This document shows positions 17,110-62,897 of a stretch of DNA of 63,183 nucleotides, piece by piece. Source of the DNA: Nitrospira sp. (GTDB lineage: Bacteria > Nitrospirota > Nitrospiria > Nitrospirales > Nitrospiraceae); contig VGXC01000019.1 of the NCBI GenBank assembly GCA_016873495.1, positions 1 to 63,183 of the forward strand, in the 5' to 3' direction. Within the stretch, counting starts at the first letter, position 1. Each line of letters begins with the position of its first letter. The position numbers were made by a program, and so were the translations under genes. Below the pieces are notes generated by a model. The model ran no database searches. It was not told where the DNA came from and saw only the letters and a program-made list of their open reading frames with translations.

Positions 17110-17123
17110 AAGATCCTAATGTT

Positions 17124-24747: not shown

Positions 24748-24775
24748 TTGACAATGATCGTCAGTTTGCTATGGT
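24748..24775 (+). promoter_or_regulatory. candidate promoter of the OmpA-family gene
   Basis: TTGACA (24748-24753) is followed after 16 bp by TATGGT (24770-24775). Transcription would start near 24782, which disfavours in-frame starts before that point. Confidence 0.5.
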
Positions 24776-24809
24776 TACGCCCATGTCCTGGCTTTGGCGT
24801 CAGCGGCCC

Positions 24810-33178: not shown

Positions 33179-36100
33179 CTAGCTGGACGGGGCCAGTTCG
33201 CGCACGATCGCAGGCAACTGCTCGTACCCCTTGTAGTCTTCCGCCGCCTGGTACGCTCGCACCCGGTCCATGTCCCAGCCGATGAGCACGGTATACCAGT
33301 CCCGCTGTTTTCCGTCCTGCTCGATCAGGATCGTGGTCGTATAGCCCTTCGATTCCAACTGCTTCCGCAATGTTTCGGCATTGGTTTCCGCTAAGAAGGC
33401 GCCCACTTGCACGGCGAACGTGCCCTCGGGCGCGACCGAGAGCATCGCCACCGTCATCACCTGAGACCGGTCCGGCATCGGCAGGTCGGCCGTCGCCATA
33501 GGCCGGTTCGCAGGAACAGAGCTGGTCGGTTCGGCCGGTCTGGCCGCCGTATGCATCCCGCCCTTGGGCATGCCGTTCCCCGGTTGATCCCAACAGGCCG
33601 CGATCCTGGCCGGGACGGACACTTTGATCTGTGGCTTCTGGCGGAGTTCCTTCTGCTTCTCTTTCGCTTCCTGCGCTAGCATCTGGTCGTGCTGGTCTTC
33701 CAGCAGGAGTCGGAGTTGCTGCCGACGACGCTCCTGTTGCTCCAGCCGATCCGTCTGCCGGAGCTGCTCCAGGATCGTCTCCTGACCGGAGATCTCGTAG
33801 CGTACGCGAAGGGTTTTCATGCCCACGAGTTCCAGCCGCTGTTTTTGCTGGGGAAAATCGGCGGGCACGAACAGGTGGTCGCCGGAGTAGAAGTCTTGCA
33901 GGAACCGCGCGAAACCTTCGGGACCCGGATATTTCCTGGTCAACGTGAGACCATCGAGGACCACCTGCAAGGTCGTGTCGCCGCAGGTGTTGGGCGACCA
34001 TTGGAAACTGCCCACAACGGGAAAGTTGTAATTGGGAATCGTATTGATCCCGGCAGCGCATTGCACGGTCAGGGTGGTGGCGGAGGGATTGACTTTGGCC
34101 TCCGGATTAACGCTGGTCGGCAATCCGCTGATCGTCACCTGGGTCACGCGGTCCTTCAGCGTTTCCAGCGACCCCTTCAAGTCGGCCAACGACTGGTCCA
34201 GGTCTTTCAGCATGGCGGCGATGGTCGCGCTGGTGAGCTGCCCGTTGGCCGCGGCCCGGGACACTGCCTCCAGATTCTGTTCTTCCAACTTGTCCTGTTG
34301 CGCTTGCAGAGCCCGCTTCGCCTCCTGTCGGCGCTTTTCTTCCTGCTCGAGCTGATCGAGCTTCTTGGCCTGGCCCAGGATCGCCTCCTGCCCGGTGATC
34401 TCGTACCGCACGCGGATGGTCGTGATCCCCAGCAACTCCAGCCGTTGCTGCTGCTGCGGGAACTCGACCGGCGTGAAGCTGCGCTCCCCGTCGTAGAAGT
34501 CCTGCAGGAACCGGGCGAAGCCCTTGCCGCCCGAATACCGTTTCACAAGCGTGAAGTCCTCCAGCTTGATCTGGAGCGTCACGTCCCCACAGGTCAGGGG
34601 CGACCACTTGAACGTGTCCGTGACGGGGAAATTGTAGTTGGGGATCGCGCGCGCCCCGCCGACACATTCGACCGTGAGCACGGTCGCGAAGGGACTGGCC
34701 TTGGCGTCGGGATTGACCCCGGTCGGCAATCCTTTGATCGTCACGTTGGTAACAGCCTGTTTCAATTGCTCCATCGACCCCTTGAGATCGCCCAGCGCCG
34801 CTTCGACGCCGGCCATCTTCTTCTGGGATTCGAGCTTGAGCTGTTTCTGTTCGATCTCCACCGCCTTGGTCTCGACTTTCTGCTCCACCACCCGGTTCAA
34901 GGCCTCGTTCATGAAAGGCAGGAACTGGTCGGTAAAGGGCACCCGGGCGCCCAGCGTCTCGATGAAATGGTAGGCCCGCGCGTCCCGCAAGACAAACGGT
35001 TTGGCCGATCCGTCCGCAAAGGCCCAGACCACGCCCTTCTGCCCATACAGCACGTCATGCAGGTCGCTCGTGCTGGCCGCGCCCTGCGTCGGGTAGAGCA
35101 CCTTCGCTTCCCATTCTTTCTGTAGCGTGCAGGCCGTTTCTTCTTCCACGAACTCTATGGAGAAGCGGAGCGGTCCCTCGATCAGCGCCCAGACCGCGCG
35201 GTTTTCGAAATCGTCCCGCGCCCCCAGCAGCTGCTTGATGGCCGCCAGGGCATCGTGGGCGGCATGGAGCGGTGAAGCCTTGACGGTGGGGTCCAGGGAG
35301 AAGGAGTGGAAATCGGAGGCGATCTTGTAGGCGCGGCCCTGGCCCAACACCGCCTCCTTCCAGACTCCCTCCAATTCCGCTTGATAGGTCCGGAACGTCT
35401 TGGCCGCGTTGAGCTGGTTTTCGAACAGCTCCTTCCCCTTTCCCGGTCCTCCGGACAGGGCCCGGCGGATCATCTCTCCACCGGTCCGGTTGATGACCCC
35501 GGTCACCACCCCAGCCTTCTCCAACATCCCGGGTTTGGTGGTGGCAGGCCGGATGGCCTCGAGGCGGCGGGCCAGCCGGACCCAATCGGGCAGCTGCTGT
35601 TCGTCGCGATAGTCTCCGAACTCCTGATCCAGCCTGGCGAGCAACGCATAGTAGGGACTGTGATCGGTGGTGATCTTCTCCATGAAGACCTTCCACTCCA
35701 GTTCGCCCGCCAGCATGTTTTTGCCCAAGTCGAAGTTGCGGAGGAAGACGTACCAGGCCTTGATCTTCTCGCTCAAGTACCACGTTTCCAGCACCGCCTT
35801 TGCTTCGGCCAGGCCGGCCGGATCGGCCACAGCGCCTTCCAATTCCCCAACAAACCGGTCGATGGCCTCCTTGCCCTGCTTCGTGAATACGGCCTCCACC
35901 ATCGCCTGTTCCGCCACCGGCCGGCTCCCGTACCAGAAGTCCTTCAGCGCGACCGGTTCCGAGCCGGCTCGTTGGTTGGCCCAGCTCCGCAGCCAGCCCA
36001 GGCCGCTGGTATTCAACGTATACTGATTCAGCCAGCCCTGCAGCGTGTCCAGCTCGAACCGGAGTTGTTCCGGATGCTGTTCCCAGGCCACATAGGCGGC

Positions 36101-37909
36101 GTAGAGATAGCCGAACTGCTGCATCTCTTCGGGAGTCGCCTCCGCGTTCGGATCGCTCGCTCTGGCCAAGGTCACCCCTTCGGCAAACGGATTGGGCATC
36201 GTCTCCAGCTTGTCCAGCCCCTCGCCCGCCTGACGGGCCTTGATCAAATTGATGCGCCGGACGATCAACTGCAAGAGCAGCGGGCGGATATTCTGCGGGT
36301 CCTGGACGGCGAGGGCCTCAAGTCCCCTCGCTATTCTGGTATCGATATCCGCAAGCAGGAGTGTGCGGAAGTCGTCGGCATAGACCTGCTGCAGTTGATC
36401 TTCGAGTTCCACGACTTGCCCGTTGAACGGCACCAGTCGCACGAACCAATTCCGATCCCACTCCTCCATCTGCCGGAGCAGCGGAATGTACTGGCCCATG
36501 GCCGGCAGGTCGTATTTCAGTTTCCCGGTCAGCTGCGCCCGCTTGCCCGGATACTCGCTGCGCAGATGGCTCATCGTGCCGAAGCTGTAGGCAAAGGAAA
36601 TGGTCAGCCCGACGATGGCCACCAGCCCGAACGCCAGCCACGTGGTCAGACCCACGTTCCGCATCATGCGCTCCCACCGCGGCACATAGCCCAGAGGCTT
36701 GAAGTAACCCCGGTCCTCCGGCAACGTGACGTGGAAAAAATCGCGCAGGAACAGCCCGCGTGAGACGCCGGCCTCCGGACCCGGCTGAGCGGTCAGTCCT
36801 AGGTCCTTGAGCACGAGGGAGGCGCCCGCCTCCTGCTGCCGGCTGCTGCAGAAGAAGAGTCCGCGGAGCAGCGGCGAGTCGAGGTAGGGGTCGCTCGCGA
36901 ACCCGCCCCCCCAGAACGCGTCCAGCCCCGGCCGCAACCGCTCGAACTCCTGCGGAAAGAGCAACAGCCGCACGTCCATCCCGCCGAGCCGATGGGCCAC
37001 CACCAGCCGCATGTCCTTCAGCCGTTCGGTGATATTCTGGAAGGCCGTCTCCAGAAACGCTTTCCCGTCGGCGGACTCGTCCCCGCTGACATAGCCCATG
37101 GCCTGTTCCAGCGCCTTGTCGGGCAGGTGCCGGCTCCACTCGCTCAAGCCGAACAGCGCATCGCATTTGGTGACCACGACGTAGACGGGAAATTTCACAT
37201 CGAGCAGCCGCATCAACTGGTCGATGCGCTTTCTGATGAAGCGCCCCTCTTCCGCCAGCGCCTCCGCCCCGGCCATGAGCAGCCGGTCGGCCGGCAGCGT
37301 CACGACGAGGCCGTTCAGGGGTTCCTTCTTGCGGTACTTGCCCAGGAGGTCCAGCAGCTGCTCCCACTCCTCACGGTCCTGCCCTTCCTGGGCGGGCACC
37401 GCGTAGCTCCCAGCCGCCTCGATCACGATGCCGCTGCTCAGGTACCACCATTCGCCGCGGTTGGATCCGGATGTCTCGCCGGTTCCGGCAATGTCTTTGA
37501 GCGGAGAGGCGGACCGGGCCTGGCTCAGGATGGCGGATTTGCCCGAGCCGGGCGCGCCGAGCACCAAATACCAGGGCAGGACGTAGAGCGGGTCTCCCAA
37601 TCTGCGCAGATTGGACTGCCGGAGCGTCGCGACGGCCTCCTCCCACTGTTCCCGTAGCGTGATCGCCTGGCTGGGCGCTTGCGGCAGGGCTTCGCTCTGC
37701 GCCATGGATCGTGCGATCTGCTGCTTGGCCCGATAGGCGATGAACTGCCGCTTGAGGAAGCGGGCGAGCCACAGGGCGCCCAGGGTGCCGAAGAAGAGGA
37801 TGAAGGTGGAGGGAGGGGCCCAAGCGAAGTAGAGCGTCACCCCCCAGCACACGAGGGCCAGCAGGATCGACGCGAGAACATAGAGAATGACTGTGAGGAG
37901 CTTGTTCAT
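33179..37909 (-). CDS. tssM: TssM (IcmF) with duplicated C-terminal domain and SPOR domain
   Basis: The 1576-residue protein is the inner-membrane spine of the T6SS envelope complex. Two helices lie at about 5-50, and a cytoplasmic GTPase-like domain has Walker A GAPGSGKS at 118-125. A third helix is near 422-445, followed by a long periplasmic part. The C-terminal beta-domain appears twice. YNFPVTDTFKWSPLTCGDVTLQI is near 1090 and YNFPVVGSFQWSPNTCGDTTLQV near 1298, each followed by GFARFLQDFY. A Gln/Glu-rich linker separates them. After a Pro-rich linker comes a SPOR-like domain (about 1493-1570, FAVQVGAFLAETNAETLRKQLESKGY). Usual TssM length is 1100-1300. It is last in the locus. Confidence 0.95.
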   Translation of the reverse strand: MNKLLTVILYVLASILLALVCWGVTLYFAWAPPSTFILFFGTLGALWLARFLKRQFIAYRAKQQIARSMAQSEALPQAPSQAITLREQWEEAVATLRQSNLRRLGDPLYVLPWYLVLGAPGSGKSAILSQARSASPLKDIAGTGETSGSNRGEWWYLSSGIVIEAAGSYAVPAQEGQDREEWEQLLDLLGKYRKKEPLNGLVVTLPADRLLMAGAEALAEEGRFIRKRIDQLMRLLDVKFPVYVVVTKCDALFGLSEWSRHLPDKALEQAMGYVSGDESADGKAFLETAFQNITERLKDMRLVVAHRLGGMDVRLLLFPQEFERLRPGLDAFWGGGFASDPYLDSPLLRGLFFCSSRQQEAGASLVLKDLGLTAQPGPEAGVSRGLFLRDFFHVTLPEDRGYFKPLGYVPRWERMMRNVGLTTWLAFGLVAIVGLTISFAYSFGTMSHLRSEYPGKRAQLTGKLKYDLPAMGQYIPLLRQMEEWDRNWFVRLVPFNGQVVELEDQLQQVYADDFRTLLLADIDTRIARGLEALAVQDPQNIRPLLLQLIVRRINLIKARQAGEGLDKLETMPNPFAEGVTLARASDPNAEATPEEMQQFGYLYAAYVAWEQHPEQLRFELDTLQGWLNQYTLNTSGLGWLRSWANQRAGSEPVALKDFWYGSRPVAEQAMVEAVFTKQGKEAIDRFVGELEGAVADPAGLAEAKAVLETWYLSEKIKAWYVFLRNFDLGKNMLAGELEWKVFMEKITTDHSPYYALLARLDQEFGDYRDEQQLPDWVRLARRLEAIRPATTKPGMLEKAGVVTGVINRTGGEMIRRALSGGPGKGKELFENQLNAAKTFRTYQAELEGVWKEAVLGQGRAYKIASDFHSFSLDPTVKASPLHAAHDALAAIKQLLGARDDFENRAVWALIEGPLRFSIEFVEEETACTLQKEWEAKVLYPTQGAASTSDLHDVLYGQKGVVWAFADGSAKPFVLRDARAYHFIETLGARVPFTDQFLPFMNEALNRVVEQKVETKAVEIEQKQLKLESQKKMAGVEAALGDLKGSMEQLKQAVTNVTIKGLPTGVNPDAKASPFATVLTVECVGGARAIPNYNFPVTDTFKWSPLTCGDVTLQIKLEDFTLVKRYSGGKGFARFLQDFYDGERSFTPVEFPQQQQRLELLGITTIRVRYEITGQEAILGQAKKLDQLEQEEKRRQEAKRALQAQQDKLEEQNLEAVSRAAANGQLTSATIAAMLKDLDQSLADLKGSLETLKDRVTQVTISGLPTSVNPEAKVNPSATTLTVQCAAGINTIPNYNFPVVGSFQWSPNTCGDTTLQVVLDGLTLTRKYPGPEGFARFLQDFYSGDHLFVPADFPQQKQRLELVGMKTLRVRYEISGQETILEQLRQTDRLEQQERRRQQLRLLLEDQHDQMLAQEAKEKQKELRQKPQIKVSVPARIAACWDQPGNGMPKGGMHTAARPAEPTSSVPANRPMATADLPMPDRSQVMTVAMLSVAPEGTFAVQVGAFLAETNAETLRKQLESKGYTTTILIEQDGKQRDWYTVLIGWDMDRVRAYQAAEDYKGYEQLPAIVRELAPSS

Positions 37910-37975: not shown

Positions 37976-38644
37976 CTATTTCAAGAGTACGGAGAAGTCC
38001 TGGGCCATGCGGCTCAAGACCGTGTAATAGGTGAGGTACAGGACAAGCGCCACCACAGGCGGCGTCACCACCAGATTGATCGTCAGCGCGGACCAGCGCT
38101 GGCCGATGCCCTTAGGCGCATCCGCCGCGCGCGCGCCCGGATAGGCGCCCGGGAACAACCGGTGTCCGCCTTCCAGCTTGAGCAGCGCCGGATCGTCCAC
38201 CAGCAGCGCCACCTGCTTCTGCTGGGCGGCGATCAGCATCCCGCGGTCGGTCTGGTAAACATACCGTCCCTTGAAGCCCAGGAGCAGGCAGAGGACATAG
38301 ACCTCCCGGATCTCCCGTTGCTGCGGCGACAACGTATCGAGACGCGTAAAGAATTCCAGGCCCGCGCGCGCCGTCCTGAAATAGATCGCCTGCAGCGGCT
38401 CCTTCTGCCAGCGCCCGACCTCGCTCCAGGCGGAGCTCAAAACCGCCTCATCCAGCCAGGCCACCACGGCGAACAGGGCCGCGTCGCATTCCTCGTTTGA
38501 AAACCCATGCTCCAGGCCCCGGGCACCGGCCTCGCCGATCAACTGGACGATGCGCGCGCGGAACGCCGAATAGTCCTGGGTGGGCTGCTGAAGATACTGC
38601 TTGGCAAAGGCGAGGAGCTCAGTGAAACAGTCAACAAGCCGCAT
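37976..38644 (-). CDS. tssL: TssL (DotU/IcmH) T6SS membrane protein
   Basis: The 222-residue cytoplasmic-hook protein has one C-terminal helix (LTINLVVTPPVVALVLYLTYYTVL). The family pattern FAVVAWLDEAVLSSAWSEVGRWQKEPLQAIYF and CLLLGFKGRY is present. No peptidoglycan-binding extension is fused, unlike specialised TssL forms. In this locus that function appears on TssM instead. GGAG seven nt upstream and 2 bp spacing from tssK define the start. Confidence 0.93.
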   Translation of the reverse strand: MRLVDCFTELLAFAKQYLQQPTQDYSAFRARIVQLIGEAGARGLEHGFSNEECDAALFAVVAWLDEAVLSSAWSEVGRWQKEPLQAIYFRTARAGLEFFTRLDTLSPQQREIREVYVLCLLLGFKGRYVYQTDRGMLIAAQQKQVALLVDDPALLKLEGGHRLFPGAYPGARAADAPKGIGQRWSALTINLVVTPPVVALVLYLTYYTVLSRMAQDFSVLLK

Positions 38645-38646
38645 GC

Positions 38647-40047
38647 CTATCTCCGCAACGCTACGAGTTCGACCCGCAAGTCGGCCGGAGCCTCCCCCCA
38701 ATAGAGGGCGATGCTGCAGCTGCGCTCCACGAAATCCCATTGCTCGCTAAGTTGCTCGATGCGAAAGTAGAGGGAGTTGGCACGCCGCGGCAGCCCTTGC
38801 GGCGCCACCGGCATCTGGATGAGCTCCACGCCCGGCAGAGCCCGGCTGATCAGCACCGGCACCTGATCGCGCGCGCCGAGCTTTGCTTGGGATTCAAAGG
38901 ATTCGAGTACGCCTTCCGACGCGCTCTCCGTCCGCATCACCAGATAAAACCGGTTGCGCTGCGCGAAAAAATTCTTGGGCAGATCGGCGACGTAATAACC
39001 GTCCTGCAGTTCGAGCCGAACCAGAAATTCCGGCCCGATGGTGATCTCGTTCAGCAACTGGGCGATGAGATTCCGCACCGCGGCCATGCACTTACCAAGG
39101 TCCTCGTGGACATAGGCCGGCACCGCTCCGCTGCCGGACGCCGGGCCGCTTTGCGTTTCACCCAGCATGTTGAACCGCTCCGAGAACGAGCTCAGCTCCC
39201 CCACCATCTGCCGCAGGGCTCCGTAGACCACCCAGGGGTGCACCTGCCTGGTTTCCGTGTAATGGACCAGCAGCGGGACGTAGCGGTTCAGCGACCGCAA
39301 CGCCAGCAGATAGATCATGTGACCGGCGTCGAACTCCGCCTTCTGCGCCTCGCGTGGACTCTTGTACTCCTCCAACTGGCGGGCCCGGCCCGCAATCTCG
39401 TCGCGGATGTCCTTGATCACGTTCATCAGCACACCGGACGCGGAGACGGCTACGCAGGGCGGAATGAACTTGCCGGAGAGCTTGATCACCTCCCCATCCC
39501 GCTCCAGTCGCGCCACCGGGATCGTCTCGTAATCGTCCAGGCGGTCCAGCTCGGTCTCCCAGAAGACCTTCACCACGTAGTTCAAGGTCTGGACCATGGC
39601 GGTGGCCCCGCCCTGGTAGAGATCCCGCACTTCATTCGGATCCGCCGTCGTCACGAAGCGGCTCGTCACCCCGGACAGGTCGTCGTAGGATTTCACCACC
39701 GTCACGTTCGGTTCGACCTGACTGAGCCTTTTCAGGCCCAGGTAGACGGTAAAGGGTTTGTCTCCCTCGACCCAGTCCGTCTTGAACGAGCGGGGCTTGA
39801 TGAGGGCGTTGCCAGGAAATTCCACGTAGGTCCCGTCGCGGAACAGCAGTTGAGCCGTGGCGATCTCGACCGACAAGTTCCCGATGGCGGCGGGGGAGAG
39901 GTCCAGCGCCCCGACCCCCCAGAAGTGCGGCAGTCCCAGGTCGGACAGGGGACGCTGGAGAAATCCTGCATAGAGGTCGGAGAGTTGGAAATGCTGAGGC
40001 TGGAGAAACAGGCCTTGATGCCAGTAGATCGGCTTCTTGCTGTCCAC
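38647..40047 (-). CDS. tssK: TssK baseplate protein
   Basis: The 466-residue protein begins with the TssK signature IYWHQGLFLQPQHFQLSD. It keeps the C-terminal receptor-binding-like domain (YVADLPKNFFAQRNRFYLVMR ... YFRIEQLSEQWDFV). It links the baseplate wedge (TssEFG) to the membrane complex. Translation starts at GTG with AAGGG about 7 nt before. It is first of a tssK-L-M group behind its own candidate promoter. Confidence 0.95.
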   Translation of the reverse strand: MDSKKPIYWHQGLFLQPQHFQLSDLYAGFLQRPLSDLGLPHFWGVGALDLSPAAIGNLSVEIATAQLLFRDGTYVEFPGNALIKPRSFKTDWVEGDKPFTVYLGLKRLSQVEPNVTVVKSYDDLSGVTSRFVTTADPNEVRDLYQGGATAMVQTLNYVVKVFWETELDRLDDYETIPVARLERDGEVIKLSGKFIPPCVAVSASGVLMNVIKDIRDEIAGRARQLEEYKSPREAQKAEFDAGHMIYLLALRSLNRYVPLLVHYTETRQVHPWVVYGALRQMVGELSSFSERFNMLGETQSGPASGSGAVPAYVHEDLGKCMAAVRNLIAQLLNEITIGPEFLVRLELQDGYYVADLPKNFFAQRNRFYLVMRTESASEGVLESFESQAKLGARDQVPVLISRALPGVELIQMPVAPQGLPRRANSLYFRIEQLSEQWDFVERSCSIALYWGEAPADLRVELVALRR

Positions 40048-40454: not shown

Positions 40455-41123
40455 TTACTTGCCGCCTTCAGTCGGGGTGAGAAGATTGATCTGACCTGTT
40501 TCGACCTCGGCTTCGCCCTCCTTAGGCTTGCCCTCCTCAGGCTGACGGATCCGGAGCGCGTTGACCAGTTGTTCGGTGCCGAGCAACAGATTGATTACCA
40601 CGTTGCCGGGGCTGGCGACGCGGGTATGGATGATCCACCCGCTAGTCTTCACTACGACCGGAATCTGGAACAGGCGGGCCGTGTTTTGGGGGTCCATCTT
40701 GAAATAGCCGGCGACGATGCCGACGTACTTCGCGTTCTGGGCCCGATCCACCGTGATCGTTTTCGGTTTGCCCGGCTCGATGATGTACCGGGTAAAGCCC
40801 AGAGTCCCCGCGCTCGCATAGCCGGTGGCAAAGAGCTTGCCGATGGCGGCCGGATCGTTCAGCAGGGAAATGAAGGTGTTCGGATCGGCGGTTTGATAGA
40901 CGCCCAGTGCCAGCGTATGCGGCTGGCCTCCAAACAGGTTCAGGTTGGGGTCCGGCTTGATTTCGACGGTGATCGCGTTGGACCCATAGGTCCACTGCAT
41001 CTGCTTGCGGGCATCTTCTTCGGAGTTCCCGCCGAACCAGGAATTCATGGTGGAGCAAGCGGGAAGCGCGGAGGCCAGAACGCACGTGAACAACAGGCTG
41101 AGGGATCGGCGCATGCGGCCCAT
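40455..41123 (-). CDS. tssJ: TssJ outer-membrane lipoprotein
   Basis: The 222-residue lipoprotein (lipobox ASALPAC, Cys near residue 23) has the TssJ transthyretin-like core. Elements seen are WTYGSNAITVEIKPDPNLNLFGGQPHTLALGVYQTADPNTF, the LGFTRYIIEPGKPKTITVDRAQNAKYVGIVAGYF stretch, and INLLLGTEQLVNAL. It anchors TssM to the outer membrane. It is longer than typical TssJ (about 150-180) because of a Glu/Lys-rich C-terminal tail. Confidence 0.92.
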   Translation of the reverse strand: MGRMRRSLSLLFTCVLASALPACSTMNSWFGGNSEEDARKQMQWTYGSNAITVEIKPDPNLNLFGGQPHTLALGVYQTADPNTFISLLNDPAAIGKLFATGYASAGTLGFTRYIIEPGKPKTITVDRAQNAKYVGIVAGYFKMDPQNTARLFQIPVVVKTSGWIIHTRVASPGNVVINLLLGTEQLVNALRIRQPEEGKPKEGEAEVETGQINLLTPTEGGK

Positions 41124-41141: not shown

Positions 41142-41918
41142 TTATTGCAATTGCAGGGCAAAGACGTCGGCCTCCTGACCTTCGGCATACTGGCTGAACA
41201 GAAGGGAGGACGGCTGACCCTTCACACGGATAAAGTAGGATTGGCTTTCATCCACCATGTTCTTGACCGCCCAGGCGACGAACTTCTTGCCCCCCAGGGC
41301 CAATTCAAAACCTTTTTGTTCATACTCGAGCACCGTCCGTTCCGGCAGCTTCCCCTTGGCCCCCACCGCATGGAACGTGATCTCCGCGCCGGCCACGCCG
41401 AACAGGGCGCCGGTCCAGGCTCCTTGCGCGGGGCCGACTTCGAACCACTGCCCCAGGTTCGGATCGCCATAGACGTCCAGCCGATAGTCCTGGCTCACCG
41501 GCGCCTGAGGCTTGTTCACCTGGGCCACCAGTTTGGCCTGCCAGGCCGGAGTCGCGTCCGACAAGACCGTCGCGCCGCGCAGCGGCGTCGGCAAGGTCGC
41601 CGGCGCCACGCTTTCTTTCCCGCTGAACAGAAAGACCACCGGGAATCCGGTTCCGTTGGCGGCATAGATCGAGAGCGCCATCAGCGAGAGCCCATATCGG
41701 ATCGAGGGTTGGGCCAGCTCCTTCTCCGAGGCCAGCACCAGCCACAGGGAAGCCTTGCTGTTCTTCATTTCGTCGCGCGCGCCCATCCAGGCCATCTTCT
41801 CCAGATTGTCGATCCAGAAATGGCCGTTGGGAGCGAGCCCGTACGTCTTGAGCTGTCCCATGACCTGCTGGACCCGGGCCTCGTCCTTCGCCAATGCGGT
41901 GACCCAGACGGTTTTCAT
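41142..41918 (-). CDS. unknown T6SS-locus protein (two-domain)
   Basis: The 258-residue soluble protein has no signal peptide. The first ~115 residues (MKTVWVTALAKDEARVQQVMGQLKTYGL ... WIDNLEKMAWMGARDEMKNSKASLWLVLAS) look like an alpha/beta fold with a faint TIR-like rhythm. The second half (DYRLDVYGDPNLGQWFEVGPAQGAWTGALFGV...ITFHAVG) is beta-rich. I do not recognise a family. It sits between a vgrG (22 bp) and tssJ (18 bp), so it is co-transcribed with T6SS genes and probably a component, accessory factor or cargo. Good Shine-Dalgarno GGAGAGG. Confidence 0.6.
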   Translation of the reverse strand: MKTVWVTALAKDEARVQQVMGQLKTYGLAPNGHFWIDNLEKMAWMGARDEMKNSKASLWLVLASEKELAQPSIRYGLSLMALSIYAANGTGFPVVFLFSGKESVAPATLPTPLRGATVLSDATPAWQAKLVAQVNKPQAPVSQDYRLDVYGDPNLGQWFEVGPAQGAWTGALFGVAGAEITFHAVGAKGKLPERTVLEYEQKGFELALGGKKFVAWAVKNMVDESQSYFIRVKGQPSSLLFSQYAEGQEADVFALQLQ

Positions 41919-41940: not shown

Positions 41941-44148
41941 CTACCCGAGCAAGATGATGCCGCTTTGATTCAAGTGTGCGGACGCGGACTCAAGAGCAAC
42001 CCCGGCCTTCTGGATGTGCACATCGGAGTTTTCAATGTCCGCTCCCGCATCCATCAGGGAGACTCCGGCCTCCTCGATCATGGCGGCACAGGACGTCACC
42101 TGGCTCCCGATCGTCTGGATCTTCGACTTCAGCGCCTCGATCACACTCCCCTGCGCCTTGATCGTACTGGAGGTAGCATCGACGACGAAGTTGTTCACCC
42201 GGGTCACCGATCCGAGGCGGAGGTCGAAGGACTTGCCGACATTGACAGCGGTGGAAAGGCCGACATTGACGCCCGTGGAAGCCCCCACATTGATCGTCGT
42301 GGACAAGGGCCCGATGACGGCCAATTTTCCTCCGACCACGACCTCGGCCTTGAAGCCCCCCACGGTCTCGGCTTTGGCTCCGGCCGTGACTTGTGTTCGC
42401 AGCCCCCCCAGCATGATGTCGGTTGCGCCCTGATGGCGGACGACGACCTCGTTTCCGAATATCCTCCTGGCGACGTCCCCCGAAACGGCTATCGACTGGT
42501 TCCCTTCTGTCGTTTCCTGTTTGTTCCCGCCGGTGGACTCGATCCTGTCGCCGTCCGTGCTGAGAGTCAGCCCCGTTGGCGCCCCATCAGCCGCGCCGAG
42601 CACGATCGCTGTATGGGCGGCGGGAGACTCGATGCGAATGGCCTCGTGCCCCTGCCGGTCTTCAAAGATGACGTGGTTGTCTCCGGCCGTATGGATGACG
42701 CTCTGGGTCTCGTTTTTCCGCGTCACCACGCTGGCGGCCAGGGAATTGGGCACGGCGGCCGTGATAATCGGCCGGTCCGGGTCCCCATCCACGAAGGACA
42801 ATAACACCTCCGTGCCCTTGTGTAGAGGAAAATGCATGCCTGCGTCCTTGCCGGCATAGGGGGTCGCCATCCTGATCCAAGCCGAGCCACGGCCGGCGGC
42901 CTTGTCCGTGACGTCGAACGGCACCTGAATTTTGTATCGACCCTGTTCGTCCACCTCCGCATAGGCGCCGGCCCCTTCCGCGTCCACAAACGCCGTCAGC
43001 GTCCCTGAGACTTTGGGTTTGGGCGTCCGCCGCTCCGGCCTGAACTGCACGTCGGCGGGAATCGCCGTGAATTCCGCATAGTACCCGCCCGTGCGCTCGT
43101 GGGGCGCATCCGGCTCCGACGCCCCGCCCAACAAGGCACTGGCCTGCGTGCCCTTGTGGCGAACGCCCGCCACCAGATATTTGCCGTTGTAGTCCGATCG
43201 AAAATGCTGCGAAAGGGTCAGAAAATCGCCGGCCCACAATAAGGCAGAGTGACTTTCGCCGTGGAATACGTTCGCACGACAGGCCAGTTCCTCCGCGCGG
43301 ACCCTGGCCAGGGCCTGCCCCTCCTCCTTCGTCTCGTAATGTTCGCCGTACAAGGCCATCTCGCCGAACCCCTGAGACGACACCTCTGCGGACACAGTCA
43401 GGTCGGCGCTGGCCCGGTCCGGAGTGTAATTGCGCAACGTCACCGCCCTGGGCGTCGGACGCCGCCGGCAGACAAAGGCCTGGATCGTCCGGTCCGTCAA
43501 GCCGGTTTCCGACACCGGATCGTTCGGCCGATAGGAAACGTTCCGCGCCGTGGCTGCATGGTACCGCCGGTCGTCCACGAGCACGAGCAGGTCCCGCCCG
43601 TCCTTTTCGTCGAAGAAATAGTAAATGCCCTCGCGCTCCAGGAGCCGCGACAGAAAATCGAGGTCGGACTCCTCATACTGACACAAGGCCGGCCAGACTT
43701 TCCGCTTCGACGGCCCGCCGAGCTTCCATTCGAAGTCCAGTCCGGCCTTGCGCAACAACGACTCTACGACCTGGGGGATCGTCTGGTTGACATAGATTTC
43801 CGACTGCTTGATCAGCGACAGACGCCACAGCCTCGGCACCAGCACCGCCCGGTAGAGACAGTACCCATGGGTTTGCCCCATTTGCTCCAGCGTACGCAGG
43901 ATGCCGGAGCAGGTGACGGGCTTGAATCGCTTGTCCTTGGGGTAGGCGGTGAGGGTGGCCGGATGGGACAAGACCTTTTCCAGGTCCACGTCGGCATCCT
44001 CCGAGATCAGAGTAACCGTGAACTCGTAGAGGCAGGAGAGCGCATCGTACCCGTCGAAATCCAAGACCGCGAAGGTCCCGGCCGCCGCCCCCTTCGAGGC
44101 AAAGGACAGGAACTTGTTCTCCCCCAACGCCTGATCGAGCGTCCCCAT
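41941..44148 (-). CDS. vgrG: VgrG spike protein (copy 1, nearest tssJ)
   Basis: The 735-residue protein has the gp27-like N-terminal domains (GTFAVLDFDGYDALSCLYEFTVTLIS...) and the gp5 OB domain (GAGAYAEVDEQGRYKIQVPFD). The conserved HFPLHKGTEVLLSFVDGDPDRPIITAAVPNS follows. The C-terminal ~150 residues are a polar beta-repeat tail that ends in 7-residue units (AGVSLMD-AGADIEN-SDVHIQK-AGVALES) and the hydrophobic cap GIILLG. No catalytic extension is seen. It trimerises as the puncturing tip on Hcp. The Met after AGGAGG is used as the start. Confidence 0.94.
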   Translation of the reverse strand: MGTLDQALGENKFLSFASKGAAAGTFAVLDFDGYDALSCLYEFTVTLISEDADVDLEKVLSHPATLTAYPKDKRFKPVTCSGILRTLEQMGQTHGYCLYRAVLVPRLWRLSLIKQSEIYVNQTIPQVVESLLRKAGLDFEWKLGGPSKRKVWPALCQYEESDLDFLSRLLEREGIYYFFDEKDGRDLLVLVDDRRYHAATARNVSYRPNDPVSETGLTDRTIQAFVCRRRPTPRAVTLRNYTPDRASADLTVSAEVSSQGFGEMALYGEHYETKEEGQALARVRAEELACRANVFHGESHSALLWAGDFLTLSQHFRSDYNGKYLVAGVRHKGTQASALLGGASEPDAPHERTGGYYAEFTAIPADVQFRPERRTPKPKVSGTLTAFVDAEGAGAYAEVDEQGRYKIQVPFDVTDKAAGRGSAWIRMATPYAGKDAGMHFPLHKGTEVLLSFVDGDPDRPIITAAVPNSLAASVVTRKNETQSVIHTAGDNHVIFEDRQGHEAIRIESPAAHTAIVLGAADGAPTGLTLSTDGDRIESTGGNKQETTEGNQSIAVSGDVARRIFGNEVVVRHQGATDIMLGGLRTQVTAGAKAETVGGFKAEVVVGGKLAVIGPLSTTINVGASTGVNVGLSTAVNVGKSFDLRLGSVTRVNNFVVDATSSTIKAQGSVIEALKSKIQTIGSQVTSCAAMIEEAGVSLMDAGADIENSDVHIQKAGVALESASAHLNQSGIILLG

Positions 44149-44217
44149 TTCTCCCCACCTCCTGGCCGATTGCCCAAGTCTGTGACCCATACAGGCCGGG
44201 GCACGGCGCCCGCCTTG

Positions 44218-46590
44218 TTATCCCAGAAACGCCACGCCTGCGTCGTTCACCATGATCGGCGCGTCTTGGATGGCCACGCCGAGCGACCGCGTCACCCGGC
44301 TGCCCGACTCGTCCACCACCACGCCGGAGTTGCTTACGCCGACGCTCCGATCGGTGACTTCCGTGCCCATGCTGGCCAGGCGCATCGCAGCCAGTTGCGC
44401 GTTCATCTCGATCATTTCGGCGGACAGATCGTAGGCTTCGACCCGGCTGTTGCCGGCGGCGATCCTGGTGGCCGCAACGCCGATCTTGGTGGCGATCGAT
44501 TCGACCTTGCTCCCGAGGGCCTGAATTTTTTGGGCCATCGCCCCCAAATACTGGCCGAAGCTCTGCACCTGGATCGCGCCGACATTCAGCAAGCCGCCTA
44601 CGTACAGGTGGGTCGTGCCGGCGGCGACGTAGGTGTCGGTATGGGCGGTGCCGATGGCCGTCCGGCTCATGTTGCCCATGACGGTCTGGCTGTGCCCGCC
44701 CCAGATCATCTCCTGATTGGTGGTTTGGAAATGCGCGGCGACGGACTTGACGTGCGGGCCCACCGCGCTCACGCCGGGAATGAATTGTCCGGCTTCCGAC
44801 GCGGCCAGGCCCGGCGTGCCCCAGGTGCAGTTGCGCTGGCCCTTGATGGTTTCCTGATAAGCCCCGTCGATCTCCGTCGTCGTATTGCCGGTAATTGTCG
44901 CCTCTTTCTTTCCGCCCACCGTTTCGTTCCAGTTGGCGTCGGTCTTGAAGGTGAACCCGTCCTGGCCCGTGAAGGCGGTGCCGTTCGATGCCGCCTGCGC
45001 CCCCACCGTAGATTGCGGGCCGGTCCCCATGCGGAGCGTCGTCCCGGCTTTGGGCGTGCTGAAGTGGAGATATTCTCGGTCGAGCAAGTCTTCGAACTGC
45101 ATGCGATTGCCGCCGGCCGTGTGCAGCACCATCTGCGTCTGATTGTCGCGCGTCACCACGTTGGGATGCTCCGAGTTCGAGACCGTGCCCATGATCACGG
45201 GACGGTCCGGATCGCCGTTTTCAAATCCCAGCAGCACCTCGGCACCCTTGTGCAGGGGATAGTGCAGGCCGTGATCCTTGCCGGAATATTGCGAGGCCTT
45301 GCGGATCCAGAAGGAGCTCTTGCCCGCCGCCTTCTCCGTCTTGTCGAAGGGCACTTGCACCTTGTAGCGGCCCTGGTCGTCGATCTCGGCGTATTCGCCG
45401 CTGCCTTCCGCGTCGATGAAGGCGTTGATCAACCCGTGAATTTTCGGCCGCGGCGTCGTCCGCTCGGGGCGGAACTGCAAGGCGCCCGGAATGGCCGCAA
45501 AAGTCGTGCGATAGTGGTCTTCGCGGGGTTGCGACACGGCACCGGCCGCCGCGCCCAGCCCCGCCAGCAGAGTCCCGGCCTGCGAACCCTCGTGCCGGAC
45601 CTCCGTGATCAAATACTGGCCGTTGAAGTCGCCGCGATAATGGCCCGTGAGGTCGAGCAGATAGCCGGCCTTGAGTCCCGTGGCCGTGCTCTCCCCGTGG
45701 AAAACCTTGGCCCGGCAGGCCAATTCTTGCGCCCGGAGTTCCGCCAGCTTGGCCGACCACTCCTGCGTCCACCAATGTTCGCCGTAGTGCCAGATTTCTC
45801 CTTCCCCTTTGGACGACACCTCGGCCTCGCCGACCAACTCCATGGAGGCCACGTGGTAGTCGTATTCCTTCACGCCCACCTTGCGGGGCATCGGCCTCTG
45901 CGTGCAGATGAAGGCCTGGACGGATTCGTCGCGCGCGCCCGTGTCGAGTTGCTCGGCCGGCCGGTACGAGACGACGCCGCGGGCGGCCGTGTGGATCGTC
46001 CGGGTATCGGCGAAGACGAGCTTTTCCCGGTCCGGCCCCTGCTCGAAGAAGTAATAGATGCCCCGCCATTCCATCCAACGGTGGATGAAGTTCAGATAGG
46101 TCTCGTCGAACTGACAGACGAAGGGCAGCACCTTGTAATCCCGGCGGAGGAGCCGAAACTCGTAATCGGCCAAGGTCAACTGGGCCTGCTTCAACACGGT
46201 TTCGACGACATGGGGAACGTCCGGCTGCAAGTAGACTTCGGAATATTGGTGCAGGGCCAGCCGTTGCATCCGCGGCGCGAGCGTCGCCTGATAAAACGTC
46301 CACCCGTTCGATATTTGCTGGAGCTGAGTGAATTCCGTCAACACGCCGTGATAGAGAACCGGCGGCTGACCAGGCAGCCGCGAATAAATCGCCAGTTTCG
46401 CCGGCTTGGCCAGTAACTCGTCGAGGTCGAGATCGGCGCGTTCGGACACCAGAGTGAGCGTGAACACATAGGGCTTCGAGATGGCTTCGAAGCCCTGCAA
46501 GTCCACCACCGCGAAGGTGTCGACGGCGACGGCGTGCGACGTGAAGGAAAACCGTTTATCCCGTCCCAATTTCTCATCGAGCGTCGCCAT
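44218..46590 (-). CDS. vgrG: VgrG spike protein (copy 2)
   Basis: The 790-residue VgrG has the same core as its neighbours (GSGEYAEIDDQGRYKVQVPFDKTEKAAG, HYPLHKGAEVLLGFENGDPDRPVIMGTVSN). Its longer C-terminal region includes an Asn-Thr beta stretch (about 540-700) and a tail of 7-residue units (GTEVTDR-SVGVSNS-GVVVDES-GSRVTRS). The end cap is AGVAFLG. AAGGAGA precedes the ATG. It is followed by copy 1 at 69 bp. Confidence 0.94.
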   Translation of the reverse strand: MATLDEKLGRDKRFSFTSHAVAVDTFAVVDLQGFEAISKPYVFTLTLVSERADLDLDELLAKPAKLAIYSRLPGQPPVLYHGVLTEFTQLQQISNGWTFYQATLAPRMQRLALHQYSEVYLQPDVPHVVETVLKQAQLTLADYEFRLLRRDYKVLPFVCQFDETYLNFIHRWMEWRGIYYFFEQGPDREKLVFADTRTIHTAARGVVSYRPAEQLDTGARDESVQAFICTQRPMPRKVGVKEYDYHVASMELVGEAEVSSKGEGEIWHYGEHWWTQEWSAKLAELRAQELACRAKVFHGESTATGLKAGYLLDLTGHYRGDFNGQYLITEVRHEGSQAGTLLAGLGAAAGAVSQPREDHYRTTFAAIPGALQFRPERTTPRPKIHGLINAFIDAEGSGEYAEIDDQGRYKVQVPFDKTEKAAGKSSFWIRKASQYSGKDHGLHYPLHKGAEVLLGFENGDPDRPVIMGTVSNSEHPNVVTRDNQTQMVLHTAGGNRMQFEDLLDREYLHFSTPKAGTTLRMGTGPQSTVGAQAASNGTAFTGQDGFTFKTDANWNETVGGKKEATITGNTTTEIDGAYQETIKGQRNCTWGTPGLAASEAGQFIPGVSAVGPHVKSVAAHFQTTNQEMIWGGHSQTVMGNMSRTAIGTAHTDTYVAAGTTHLYVGGLLNVGAIQVQSFGQYLGAMAQKIQALGSKVESIATKIGVAATRIAAGNSRVEAYDLSAEMIEMNAQLAAMRLASMGTEVTDRSVGVSNSGVVVDESGSRVTRSLGVAIQDAPIMVNDAGVAFLG

Positions 46591-46677
46591 AACGATCTCC
46601 TTGTGGGATGGCCGCAACCAGACAGATGCAGGGCTGTTCCTCCGGCCGCCGACCGCGACGGGCCGGATCCGGAGCAG

Positions 46678-47082
46678 TCAACCGAGCGCCAGGACCGTCA
46701 CTTGACTGGGCGCCAGGGTCGCGCCGGGACAGTTCATCGCCATGCCGTTGTGGCCGGTCATCGTCGTGAGGTGCTGGACCGGCGTGCCCTCGAACAGCAC
46801 GGTCGGGGCGCCCAGCAGGTGCTCCGTCGGCCCCATGACCATCTGGGACACCACGCCCATCAGCACGCCGGCGTCGTCGCCCTGACTCAGCATGATTTCC
46901 GTGATCTGCGTCACCGAGGGCATGGCCGAGGTCAGGACCGTCATCGCGCAGGTCCCGGGGTTCGCCATCACGCCGGTGGAGATGTTGGGATAGGGAATCG
47001 GCGTGATGACCGGCCCGACCGGCGTCTTGCAGACGTCCGGCATGCCCATGTTCATACCGCCTTCCATCGTCGAAACAAACAT
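46678..47082 (-). CDS. PAAR-like DUF4150 spike-tip protein
   Basis: The 134-residue protein has the DUF4150/PAAR-like signature: MNMGMPDVCKTPVGPVITPIPYPNIS at the start, GMAMNCPGATLAPSQVTVLALG at the end. It would sharpen the VgrG tip and carry cargo. No toxin domain is fused. AGGAGG lies 5 nt before the ATG. It lies between a DUF3540 gene and a vgrG. Confidence 0.9.
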   Translation of the reverse strand: MFVSTMEGGMNMGMPDVCKTPVGPVITPIPYPNISTGVMANPGTCAMTVLTSAMPSVTQITEIMLSQGDDAGVLMGVVSQMVMGPTEHLLGAPTVLFEGTPVQHLTTMTGHNGMAMNCPGATLAPSQVTVLALG

Positions 47083-47104
47083 CGCAACCTCCTATGAGCC
47101 AATG

Positions 47105-47192
47105 GCAGATGGCTGATAGCCGAAGGCAAGAAAGTTCGATTCTGGCAACTCCCTTTCAGGCCATACGCTATCCGCCATACGCCATTCGCTCT
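47105..47192. repeat. facing heptamer repeats (T6SS spacer)
   Basis: ATGGCAG-ATGGCTG-ATAGCCG at about 47102-47123 faces GCCATAC-GCTATCC-GCCATAC-GCCATTC at 47160-47187. This is the same period-7 design as in the nuo gaps, and the two arms could pair over a ~37-nt loop. Confidence 0.7.
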
Positions 47193-47845
47193 TATCCGAG
47201 ATGAATCTGTCCCGCGTCCACTTTCACATGCTCTTCGGCGATCAGGTTGGTGTTCTTCGCATGGATCGTCATGGTCCCGTCCACGAGCTGTCGCAGGCTG
47301 GCCGCCTGGATTTCTTCCGCTTCCGACACATACCGCACGTTGGTCTTCAGTTTCTGCGTCATGCGGCTGATCACGGAGTCCCAGGCCTCGGCCACGACCG
47401 TAATCTGCTCGGCCTGCGTCTGAAGGTAGCGTCCGATCGTCGCGAACATGCCGACCCGCGCCTCCCCTTCCTGCGCGGCGACGGACAAGCGCTCGGCTGC
47501 CACAGTCAGGTCCTTGTCGGAAGAGAGCGACAGCCCTTCCGCGGACGTCAGGTTCAGCCGGCCTTCCCGCGCCGCCAAGGTGAGGGCCCCCTCGTAGGAG
47601 AGGGTGCCGGCTTGGTCGCCCCGCCGCTCCAGCACGGACAGGATGTAGGCCCACCCCTTCGGCCCGTAGGACAGCAGGACGAGGTCGGACGGGACCGGCT
47701 CCAGCAGGCAGCCGGTGGCCCGCTTGGCCTCCACCAACCCGCTGTCCGTCCGCACGAGCCACAGACTTCCCTCGACCTTCTCGACCAGGCCGAGCTCCAT
47801 ATAGGCTTCACCGTACTTGGGTTTCTTCGCCAGATTCGTCTTCAT
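47192..47845 (-). CDS. DUF3540 T6SS-associated protein
   Basis: The 217-residue protein is a DUF3540-type component commonly found with DUF2169, pentapeptide and DUF4150 genes. An OB-like N-terminal part (VRTDSGLVEAKRATGCLLEPVPSDLVLLSYGPKGWAYILSVLER) is followed by a beta-rich middle. The end has 7-residue units (TMTIHAK-NTNLIAE-EHVKVDA-GQIHLG) like the tails of three VgrGs here. The function is not established. GGAGGGG sets the start. Confidence 0.85.
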   Translation of the reverse strand: MKTNLAKKPKYGEAYMELGLVEKVEGSLWLVRTDSGLVEAKRATGCLLEPVPSDLVLLSYGPKGWAYILSVLERRGDQAGTLSYEGALTLAAREGRLNLTSAEGLSLSSDKDLTVAAERLSVAAQEGEARVGMFATIGRYLQTQAEQITVVAEAWDSVISRMTQKLKTNVRYVSEAEEIQAASLRQLVDGTMTIHAKNTNLIAEEHVKVDAGQIHLG

Positions 47846-47903
47846 GATTCCCCTCCGTTGTGTCGTTCGTCTCTCGTGTCCGGAAACCGTTTCCCGTCGC
47901 GCG

Positions 47904-49019
47904 TCAGTACGGCGGCCGCCAGGCCTCCGCCAGCGACAACTCCGCGTCCTCTCCCAGGGCTGCGGCCTTGCCGGTCGCATCCCAGATCGTCTGGTCCTCC
48001 TTGACCTTGTGCAGCTTCGTCCGGAACAGCTTCGCGCCGGTGAAATTCGCCTTGGTCAGGTCCGCATGGGAGAGGTCGCTGTAGGTCACGTCGGCCTCGT
48101 TCAGCTTCGCTTCCACGGCTTTGAGGCCGGTCAGGGTGCTGCGGCTCAAATCGGCGCCGCTCAAATCGGCCTTGGTCAGGTCCGCGTCCGAAAAGCAGGA
48201 TTGCGTGAGCCAGGCCTTTTTGAAGCTGGCCCCGGCCAGCTTCGCCTCCATGAAGACCGCACCCAGTCCCTTGACCTGGTCGAATTTTACGCCGGCCAGG
48301 TCGCCTTGCATGAAATTCGACTGCGTGATCTCGGCGCCGGTAAAGTCCGAGCCCTTGAAATCCGACCCGCCCGCCTGCACCTTGACGAAGGAGGCGTTCT
48401 TGAAATCCTGGTTCGTCAGGATACAGTTCCGCAGAAACGCCTTGTGGATCTGGGCCCCGGCCAGCGACGCCCCGCTCAGGTCGGCCTGGTAGAACACGGT
48501 GCCGTCCAGATTGCACTTGGCCAGCTTGGCCCCGTTCAGCTTGGCTTTGACCAGGGCGGTCTTGAACAGGTTCGCCCCGGAGAGATCGGCCTGGCTCAGG
48601 TCCGCGTCCGGCAACACGGTTTTGGTCAGATTGGCCCCGGCGAACTTGGCGCCCTTCAGGTTCGTCTTGTTCATCACCGCCTGGGTCAGATCGGCCCCGG
48701 CGAAGTCCGCGCCGGCCAGGTCCGCCTCCGTCAGGACCGCCTTGACGAGCTTCGCCTGCTTGAAACCGGCCCCGGTCAGTTTCAGCTTCACCCAGATGAC
48801 TTTCTCCAGGTCGCAGCCGTCGAATTTGGCCCCGGACAGATCGCAGTCGCGGAAGACCGTCTTCTTGACGATGGCGCCGGACAAGTTGACGTTTTTCAGG
48901 ATGGTCTTCTGGAAAAACCCCTTGGAGAGGTCGGCCCGGGAAAGGTCCATGCCGGTGAGGTCGGCGCCGACGATGCGCTCGTTCTTGTTGACCTTGGCCA
49001 GCAGCTCGTCGCGAGTCAT
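47904..49019 (-). CDS. pentapeptide-repeat protein, T6SS cargo module
   Basis: The 371-residue protein consists almost wholly of A(D/N)LxX pentapeptide repeats (ADLTGMDLSRADLSKGFF ... ADLSGADLSRSTL). It should form a right-handed quadrilateral beta-helix. A short N-terminal lead (MTRDELLAKVNKNERIVG) is present. No catalytic domain is fused. Its ATG overlaps the stop of the DUF2169 gene (ATGA), so the two are translationally coupled. Confidence 0.9.
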   Translation of the reverse strand: MTRDELLAKVNKNERIVGADLTGMDLSRADLSKGFFQKTILKNVNLSGAIVKKTVFRDCDLSGAKFDGCDLEKVIWVKLKLTGAGFKQAKLVKAVLTEADLAGADFAGADLTQAVMNKTNLKGAKFAGANLTKTVLPDADLSQADLSGANLFKTALVKAKLNGAKLAKCNLDGTVFYQADLSGASLAGAQIHKAFLRNCILTNQDFKNASFVKVQAGGSDFKGSDFTGAEITQSNFMQGDLAGVKFDQVKGLGAVFMEAKLAGASFKKAWLTQSCFSDADLTKADLSGADLSRSTLTGLKAVEAKLNEADVTYSDLSHADLTKANFTGAKLFRTKLHKVKEDQTIWDATGKAAALGEDAELSLAEAWRPPY

Positions 49020-51883: not shown

Positions 51884-52002
51884 AATCTCCCTTGCCCCGG
51901 CGGCCTATCGGCAGGATGCGGAATCTCGAAAATCCAGTCAACTGAAAAGCCCGCGCTTTCCGCGCCGCCGCCAAGCGCCCTCCCGGCGCGGCGCGGGCCG
52001 GC

Positions 52003-54339: not shown

Positions 54340-54499
54340 AAGAACCTCCGCTGTATCGTCGAGGAGAGATCGGACCGTGACTACGTGACTAGGGGGTAGG
54401 ATGCGGAATTCGGAGACTCTAGTCAACCAAGTACATCAGCGTCTGCACAGAGACAGCGTACGGTGGCGGTCTCCGCGCGCCCATGACTTTTAGCGCAGC

Positions 54500-59597: not shown

Positions 59598-59627
59598 AGT
59601 GCCCTCGATTGAGACAAGTGAAGATGA

Positions 59628-60653
59628 TTACTGGTAGAGCGCGAACGGCACCCGTCCCTCCTGCTCATACGTGCCCGAGAAGATCCAGGTGTCCAATCCC
59701 AGCCGGCCCCACTGTACCACGCCCAGACAGGCCGGTTGCTGAAGGCTCCCGGCCTTGAGCACCAGTTCCAGCGAGCTGCCCAGACAGCCGACCTGATACA
59801 ACCGGATCAGATACTTCAACCATCCGTACTGGGGCTGGCCGGGCAACAGCTGATGGTACTGCTCGGCGGACACGGGCCCGATGCGGACCAGGAAATGATT
59901 CATGCGATCGTCCAAGGACTGCCCCAGCCAGGCCCCTTGCCCCAGCCGGCCCTGCTCCGCCTCGCGACTCTCGCCCAGGATCAGCCGCTGGTCCGCCGGA
60001 ATGTCCATCCTCTTGGGCACGCAGGACTCGACCGACACGGGAACCTGCTCCAGCGCGTCGCTCAACAGCGTCTCCATTCCCATGGCCGACCGGGGAAACT
60101 GGGTGAAGAGGCCGGCGTAGCGCAGGAGCTGATAGGCGTGGGGCTGCCGGTCGCGGATGGACGGCTCGCCGAGCCCGATCAGCGCATAGAGGCGGTCGAG
60201 GTGGGCTGCGTCGCCTTCCTCGAACACGGTCAGGTACTGTCGATTTTTCGCCCAGGCCGCGAAGAAGATCGGATAGATGGCGTAGTGGAAGATGTCCAGA
60301 AACGCCCGGACCGCGCGCTTGTCGGCCCGCCGCTCCTCGATCAGGTCTTCGGTGTAAAAGGTCGGAAGCGGCGACGACACGCCGTAGAGCCCGAAGAAAT
60401 TCGCCGTGACCCGATAGCCCTTCCCATCGGGCAGGACCTCGATCGCGTCGAGATCGGTTTCGGGAAAGGCCAGGCTCAGGTTCGGCCGGATGTGGATCTT
60501 GTCCCAGACATCAGCCGGCGGCCCGCCCTCGCCCCCTTCGTGGCGCAGCGTGTCCTGCAGGAGTCGGATCGCCTGAAAAAACGTGAACGAGGGGGCGTCC
60601 CGGAGGAGCCTGTCAGTCAAATCAGTTGTTGCTGTCCGATCCGTTCCGGCCAT
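59628..60653 (-). CDS. tssG: TssG baseplate protein
   Basis: The 341-residue protein has the TssG pattern: SFTFFQAIRLLQ at the start, FPETDLDAIEV, NFFGLYGVSSPLPTFYTEDL, RAFLDIFHYAIYPIFFAAW and a C-terminal LGLDTWIFSGTYEQ. Its start lies 37 nt inside tssF, implying coupled translation. It forms the baseplate wedge with TssE, TssF and TssK. Confidence 0.94.
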   Translation of the reverse strand: MAGTDRTATTDLTDRLLRDAPSFTFFQAIRLLQDTLRHEGGEGGPPADVWDKIHIRPNLSLAFPETDLDAIEVLPDGKGYRVTANFFGLYGVSSPLPTFYTEDLIEERRADKRAVRAFLDIFHYAIYPIFFAAWAKNRQYLTVFEEGDAAHLDRLYALIGLGEPSIRDRQPHAYQLLRYAGLFTQFPRSAMGMETLLSDALEQVPVSVESCVPKRMDIPADQRLILGESREAEQGRLGQGAWLGQSLDDRMNHFLVRIGPVSAEQYHQLLPGQPQYGWLKYLIRLYQVGCLGSSLELVLKAGSLQQPACLGVVQWGRLGLDTWIFSGTYEQEGRVPFALYQ

Positions 60654-62347: not shown

Positions 62348-62472
62348 GGCGGGGCTAAGACGACTGCTGCGGTGCGGCCAGGCTCCCCTCTCGTGCCGTC
62401 ATCCGTGGCTCCTCAAGCTGCCGCCGAGACTCGAAGGGAGGGTCGCGGCAGGACGCCCGACTCAGGGCCTGA

Positions 62473-62889
62473 TCAGTGGTAGACCGAAACCTTGCCGTTC
62501 GCCGACACCACCGTGGACAGATGGACCGGAATGTCCCGATCGTCCACGGCGACCGTGCCGGACAGTTCGAACCGAAGCGACAGGGGATCGTCCCCGCCGG
62601 AGATTAGCCTGACTTGCGGAGACTTGAGGCGGGGCTCAAACCGCTCGATCACCTGCTTGAGCCCCACCTCGATTTCCTGCGGCGTGCCCGGGACCAGGGA
62701 GCCGGCCAGATTCGTGTAGTCCGGCACCCCGAACGTGTCGTCGATCGGCACGCTGCCCTGTTTCGTGTTCAAAATCCGCTGCAAATGGCGGAGCAACGAC
62801 CGGACCAACGTGTCCGCGCTGGGAGACGCCGTGTAGTCCGCCCCCTCTTCCCAGTGCGAAATCCGCTCCAGCAGTCGTTGCTCGCTCAT
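62473..62889 (-). CDS. tssE: TssE (gp25-like) baseplate protein
   Basis: The 138-residue protein has the gp25-like core. It includes LLRHLQRILNTKQGSVPIDDTFGVPDYTNL, QVIERFEPRLKSPQVRL, and the late FELSGTVAVDDRDIPVHLSTVV. The start at MSEQRLLERI is usual for the family. Its ribosome site (GGACG) is weak, and a dispersed repeat ends 8 bp upstream, so the 5' leader is largely repeat DNA. Confidence 0.93.
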   Translation of the reverse strand: MSEQRLLERISHWEEGADYTASPSADTLVRSLLRHLQRILNTKQGSVPIDDTFGVPDYTNLAGSLVPGTPQEIEVGLKQVIERFEPRLKSPQVRLISGGDDPLSLRFELSGTVAVDDRDIPVHLSTVVSANGKVSVYH

Positions 62890-62897
62890 CGTCGTCC

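Follow-up and report, generated by a model that had tools for sequence, protein, structure and literature searches.

In many T6SSs, the membrane complex is held to the cell wall through a peptidoglycan-binding domain, which is carried either by TssL or by an accessory protein, for example, TagL (PMC8253398, PMC10433429). In TagL, this domain is OmpA-like (PMC8253398). EAEC TssM contacts TssJ at the outer membrane through a C-terminal beta domain, with a 1:1 ratio in solution (PMC3213119). SPOR domains, which occur in RlpA, FtsN, and CwlC-type amidases, bind denuded glycan, which is enriched at septa (PMC6895207). There is a precedent for such a domain on a secretion machine in LspD, the T2SS secretin of Legionella (PMC9239104).

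We analyzed a 63,183-nucleotide stretch of Nitrospira sp. DNA (referred to here as the window) that carries a T6SS gene cluster. The TssM protein encoded in this cluster belongs to the same subfamily as TssM of the Burkholderia T6SS-5 (TssM-5; e.g., Burkholderia savannae plasmid pMSMB0266 and Caballeronia sp. NK8 pNK81), with 33 to 37% identity over 84 to 91% of the query. The T6SS-5 proteins have the same C-terminal domain with a CW end motif, but this domain is present in one copy and is not followed by a SPOR domain (1229 aa in B. savannae). Likewise, other Nitrospirota TssM proteins of the subfamily (families f21, f34, and f22; open frames of 1162 to 1318 aa) have the same domain order through a CW or related end motif, but with one copy and no SPOR domain. 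The Nitrospira protein differs from all of these in having two copies and a C-terminal SPOR domain. As with evolved TssL and TagL (OmpA/Pal/MotB-type anchors), a peptidoglycan-binding domain is found on the membrane complex, but here it is of the SPOR type and is located on TssM.

Gene cluster

The minus-strand gene order was tssE, tssF, tssG, tssH, vgrG, vgrG, tagAB-like, pentapeptide, DUF3540, PAAR-like, vgrG, vgrG, an unknown gene, tssJ, tssK, tssL, and tssM (Table 1). This order matches that of T6SS-5 (tssE-F-G-H-vgrG-tagAB-tagB-tagC-tagD-tssJ-K-L-M; PMC6335564), except for extra vgrG genes (four versus one) and the insertion of the unknown gene. On the basis of gene order and the presence of tagAB-, tagB-, tagC-, and tagD-type genes, the system is of the Burkholderia T6SS-5 type, in one Nitrospiraceae genus. 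Given that tssC was located on another contig, near the contig end, the cluster was probably broken by assembly. TssL was of the short form, in line with the first-pass annotation, which had described it as lacking a peptidoglycan anchor; its true start probably lies inside the listed ORF. The VgrG proteins of the cluster (41941-62937, minus strand) bear C-terminal extensions, and the first half of the protein encoded between vgrG and tssJ has a putative TIR-like fold as judged by eye.

Table 1. Features of TssM and of neighboring T6SS genes in the window
Feature	TssM residues	Position	Strand	Basis or remark
tssM	1576 aa	33179..37909	-	One intact frame, without internal stop
N-terminal transmembrane segment(s)	~3-31	37817..37903	-	Kyte-Doolittle scan
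Walker A motif GAPGSGKS	118-125	37535..37558	-	Sequence
IcmF-related_N domain (PF14331), cytoplasmic		36641..37384	-	Pfam, E = 5e-55
Third membrane segment	419-446	36572..36655	-	Hydropathy
Repeat copy 1	1035-1190	34340..34807	-	Conserved core, 1052-1180 (34370-34756)
Repeat copy 2	1237-1392	33734..34201	-	Conserved core, 1254-1382 (33764-34150)
QIKVSVPARIAACWDQ motif	1427-1442	33584..33631	-	Near natural end of single-copy TssM of the subfamily
Pro/Ala-rich linker	1443-1494	33428..33583	-	Tested part (1451-1490) weakly constrained
SPOR domain (PF05036)	1495-1560	33230..33427	-	Pfam, E = 6.5e-11
tssL (DotU)		37976..38740	-	DotU domain only, no peptidoglycan-binding domain
tssK		38647..40047	-	Domain match
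tssJ, lipoprotein		40455..41123	-	Only PF12790 match in genome
258-aa gene between vgrG and tssJ		41142..41918	-	No Pfam match
vgrG (four genes)		41941, 44218, 52003, 54500 (block 41941..56884)	-	Domain matches
PAAR-like tagD		46678	-	Domain match
DUF3540 tagC		47192	-	Domain match
Pentapeptide tagB-like		47904	-	Domain match
DUF2169-pentapeptide tagAB-like		49016	-	Domain match
tssH/clpV, tssG, tssF, tssE		56964..62937	-	Domain matches

Integrity and identity of TssM

The coordinates, strand, and length of tssM were exactly those of the first-pass annotation. Full-length orthologues were present in two other species of the genus (88 to 89% and 81% identity, respectively), both of them in MAGs (one Nitrospiraceae and one Nitrospirota). 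Because these two species carry the same full-length layout, a frame or assembly error, such as one joining two separate genes, was excluded.

The designation of the protein as a genuine TssM within a T6SS cluster was well founded, as it has the IcmF-related_N domain, the P loop, and the N-terminal membrane segments, and its gene neighbors include tssJ, tssK, tssL, and further core genes. The Walker A residues G118, G123, and K124 were invariant across the 26 TssM proteins compared (22 from Nitrospirota and four from plasmids of Caballeronia, Burkholderia, Rahnella, and Serratia). Regarding the NCBIfam VI_IcmF equivalog (TIGR03348), the match was limited to residues 11 to 541 and scored 242 bits against a cutoff of 388, which places the protein outside the canonical equivalog, as fits a divergent subfamily. 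On the basis of hydropathy and homology to the topology of EAEC TssM (PMC3213119), the protein is predicted to be periplasmic beyond residue 446.

Between the window and the relative L008, the N-terminal 460 residues of TssM (36530-37909 and 10001-11380, respectively) were only 64% identical (dS, 0.94), whereas the subsequent domains were 86 to 94% identical (dS, 0.5 to 0.8). This contrast points to possible recombination within tssM.

Duplicated C-terminal domain

The two repeat copies were 61% identical in an ungapped alignment of 156 aa (E = 2e-72) with a period of 202 aa, and the motifs WSP, FARFLQDFY, FPQQ, and VRYEI each occurred twice at a spacing of 202. The tandem duplication proposed earlier was thus upheld, with one refinement of the suggested copy length of about 200 residues: by profile, the conserved core of each copy comprised about 130 aa. 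The remainder of the 202-aa unit outside the core was a coiled-coil-like helix. Among 23 positions that single-copy relatives conserve, copy 1 retained 19 and copy 2 retained 18, and the changes at the others were mostly conservative, indicating that neither copy is decaying. Both copies are under purifying selection, with dN/dS values of 0.07 to 0.20 for the cores among the three species (pairwise comparisons; Nei-Gojobori-style script count).

In a domain tree based on a short alignment and with moderate support, the copy 1 sequences from the three species clustered together (99/95; bootstrap/SH-aLRT), as did the copy 2 sequences (89/95), and these two groups were sisters, apart from all single-copy relatives (86/96). 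This grouping suggests that the duplication most likely predates the three species and postdates their split from the other sampled lines.

The relationship of the repeat domain to the C terminus of canonical TssM was less clear-cut. There was no match to Pfam IcmF_C in this TssM or in other T6SS-5-type TssM proteins. At the IcmF_C position of canonical TssM, the repeat profile gave a P value of 3e-4 with a probability of 39%, which is a weak match; in a second profile comparison at this position, the E value of the best canonical protein was 0.035, and that of the best of 160 shuffled sequences was 0.45. Together with the C-terminal place of the repeats, these profile matches weakly suggest that the repeat domain may be the TssJ-binding C2-like domain of canonical TssM. 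The repeat profile had no match among PDB sequences, and the AlphaFold2 models of residues 850 to 1576 (three sequences; pLDDT, 42.7) and of the repeat (six sequences; pLDDT, 44.4) were too poor for use.

Two consequences of the duplication were considered. If both copies bind TssJ, each TssM could dock up to two TssJ molecules, resulting in a different outer ring. This arrangement is in keeping with the retention of conserved positions and the purifying selection in both copies and with the TssJ binding of the EAEC beta domain, and the 3:2:2 ratio of J:M:L in the full EAEC complex provides a precedent for extra TssJ sites (PMC10433429). However, the genome has a single TssJ gene, the homology to the canonical TssJ-binding domain is weak by sequence, and the copies, which are 39% different, may have diverged in role; we therefore consider double docking doubtful. 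Alternatively, the duplication may mainly lengthen the periplasmic arm (helix-domain-helix-domain), with one copy alone contacting TssJ. The long coiled-coil-like helix within the repeat unit favors such a spacer, as does the layout of the single-copy relatives, in which the CW end motif, or a diverged version of it, comes after a single unit. The strong constraint on both domain cores, beyond the helix, counts against this explanation, which we likewise consider doubtful.

C-terminal SPOR domain

Copy 2 is followed by a helix, the sequence VPARIAACWDQ ("CWDQ" end motif), the Pro/Ala-rich linker, and the SPOR domain. The SPOR domain, which had been proposed from the letters of the sequence to follow a Pro-rich linker, was recovered by profile search with a score (42.9 bits) twice the gathering cutoff (21). 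Among solved SPOR domains, it matched 1x60, from an amidase (E = 4e-9), and there was a weak match to 1uta, from FtsN (E = 0.05). Since the single-copy TssM relatives stop at or near the CW motif (or its diverged form) soon after the domain, the linker and the SPOR domain most likely extend an ancestral C terminus.

In the same three pairwise comparisons, the dN/dS of the SPOR domain was 0.10 to 0.13, compared with 0.48 to 0.75 in the linker that separates this domain from the CWDQ motif, and the identity among the three species was 91 to 92% and 45 to 60%, respectively. This difference from the adjoining linker indicates that the SPOR domain is maintained by selection.

Positions of FtsN important for septal localization are Q251, S254, W283, R285, and I313, although the side chain of S254 is dispensable (PMC6895207). 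The SPOR domain of TssM has the same glycan-contacting Gln at the position of Q251 (Q270 in RlpA), the same Trp at that of W283, and, as in RlpA, Ala at that of S254. At the position of the glycan-contacting Arg (FtsN R285; RlpA R309), it differs from both proteins in having Thr, and this was the case in all three species. Glycan binding is thus plausible but, considering this replacement, not assured. The sole other SPOR protein found in the genome was RlpA-like, and no FtsN-like SPOR protein was found there. Because the ligand of RlpA is denuded glycan, this ligand probably exists in the organism. Recent copying from the RlpA SPOR domain was rejected as the source of the TssM SPOR domain because the similarity was very low, and a comparison of the SPOR tail with plasmids gave no T6SS-linked match.

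Search for another wall anchor

Among the T6SS genes scanned, including those for TssL, TssJ, and TssK, the SPOR domain of TssM was the only peptidoglycan-binding domain found. An OmpA-domain ORF in the window (24735-26294, plus strand) was rejected as an alternative anchor: it is on the opposite strand and outside the T6SS genes, it adjoins a primosomal-helicase-like gene (as judged by eye), and the genus has similar OmpA proteins in its other genomes, one of which lacks a T6SS. Within contig reach, these similar proteins were located away from tssM in the genus. In L008, a species-specific OmpA-domain lipoprotein gene (16172-17359, minus strand) adjoins tssM; neither the genome of the window nor any other genome of the genus had a full-length counterpart. 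Near tssM in the 12 single-copy Nitrospirota relatives, no gene with an OmpA domain was detected within contig reach.

Proposed role of the SPOR domain

The explanation that we favor, with confidence somewhat above even, is that this protein is a T6SS-5-type TssM with a tandemly duplicated C-terminal domain and a SPOR domain added after the ancestral C terminus, by which it anchors itself to peptidoglycan. TssM would span the inner membrane and the periplasm and would meet the outer membrane lipoprotein TssJ via its C-terminal domain or domains. Flexibly tethered past the TssJ-binding region, the SPOR domain would grip the glycan of peptidoglycan. Each TssM would thus carry its own wall anchor, replacing the evolved TssL or TagL used elsewhere. 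The location of the SPOR domain at the end of TssM that is expected to be periplasmic supports this explanation, as do the shared layout and the low SPOR dN/dS in three species, the retained Gln and Trp, the probable presence of denuded glycan, and the lack of any further peptidoglycan-binding domain among the scanned T6SS genes; we infer glycan binding, wall anchoring, and TssJ contact by one or both copies. Counting against it are the Arg-to-Thr replacement in all three species and the low confidence of the structure models. In addition, T6SS-5-type systems related to this one seem to function with no anchor encoded in the cluster, which argues against a strict need for one.

Alternatively, the SPOR domain might act less as a mechanical anchor than as a targeting device, so that the membrane complex is assembled on peptidoglycan processed (denuded) by amidases at division sites, where the wall would already be in the process of being opened. 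The septal enrichment of the SPOR ligand and the RlpA-like protein in the genome are consistent with this role, and there is a parallel in the type IVa pilus machine, which is preinstalled at division sites via the peptidoglycan-binding AMIN domains of PilQ (PMC5285504). Thr at the R285/R309 position and the lack of a detected FtsN-like SPOR protein that would indicate a septal SPOR pathway in the genome make septal targeting rather improbable. The combined proposal, in which the membrane complex both installs and anchors itself at amidase-processed septal peptidoglycan via the SPOR domain of each TssM and has an outer ring with two TssJ per TssM, is quite improbable. Despite the Thr at the glycan-contacting position, it is very unlikely that the SPOR domain is a passive fusion without function in the secretion system, given its low dN/dS and high identity relative to the linker.

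The proposed self-anchoring of TssM bears on how T6SS complexes that lack both an evolved TssL and TagL stay attached to the wall when firing exerts force on them. With a natural fusion of TssM and SPOR, the anchor would prove transferable to the core channel protein, and a one-protein system would be available for asking at which cellular site the machine is assembled. Similarly, the duplicated domain would be a natural experiment on the number of TssJ per complex.

Distribution

A match to IcmF-related_N was present in 32 of 396 Nitrospirota genomes. Both the SPOR domain and the second copy of the C-terminal domain were confined to 3 of the 26 TssM proteins compared, namely, the same three from this genus. 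In a search of 236 genomes of the order with the domain profile, two copies were detected in the same three genomes and in none of the rest. A fourth genome of the genus, which is nearly complete, was without matches to IcmF-related_N and TssC, and no relatives were found among viral contigs. The layout is thus rare among the Nitrospirota and plasmid proteins compared, and the first-pass annotation had known of no described TssM with this architecture. In agreement, we found no TssM with a SPOR domain or a doubled C-terminal domain described in the open-access papers searched, although SPOR may already have been mentioned for T6SS proteins. The distribution is best read as that of a lineage-specific form of TssM.

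Two further observations were made. A Caballeronia plasmid carries an unannotated TssM of the same subfamily (L058 11449-15867, plus strand) in a region for which PLSDB lists no genes. Elsewhere in the window, the gene for a caspase-domain (Peptidase_C14) protein (8431-9939, minus strand) adjoins an NADH dehydrogenase gene cluster.
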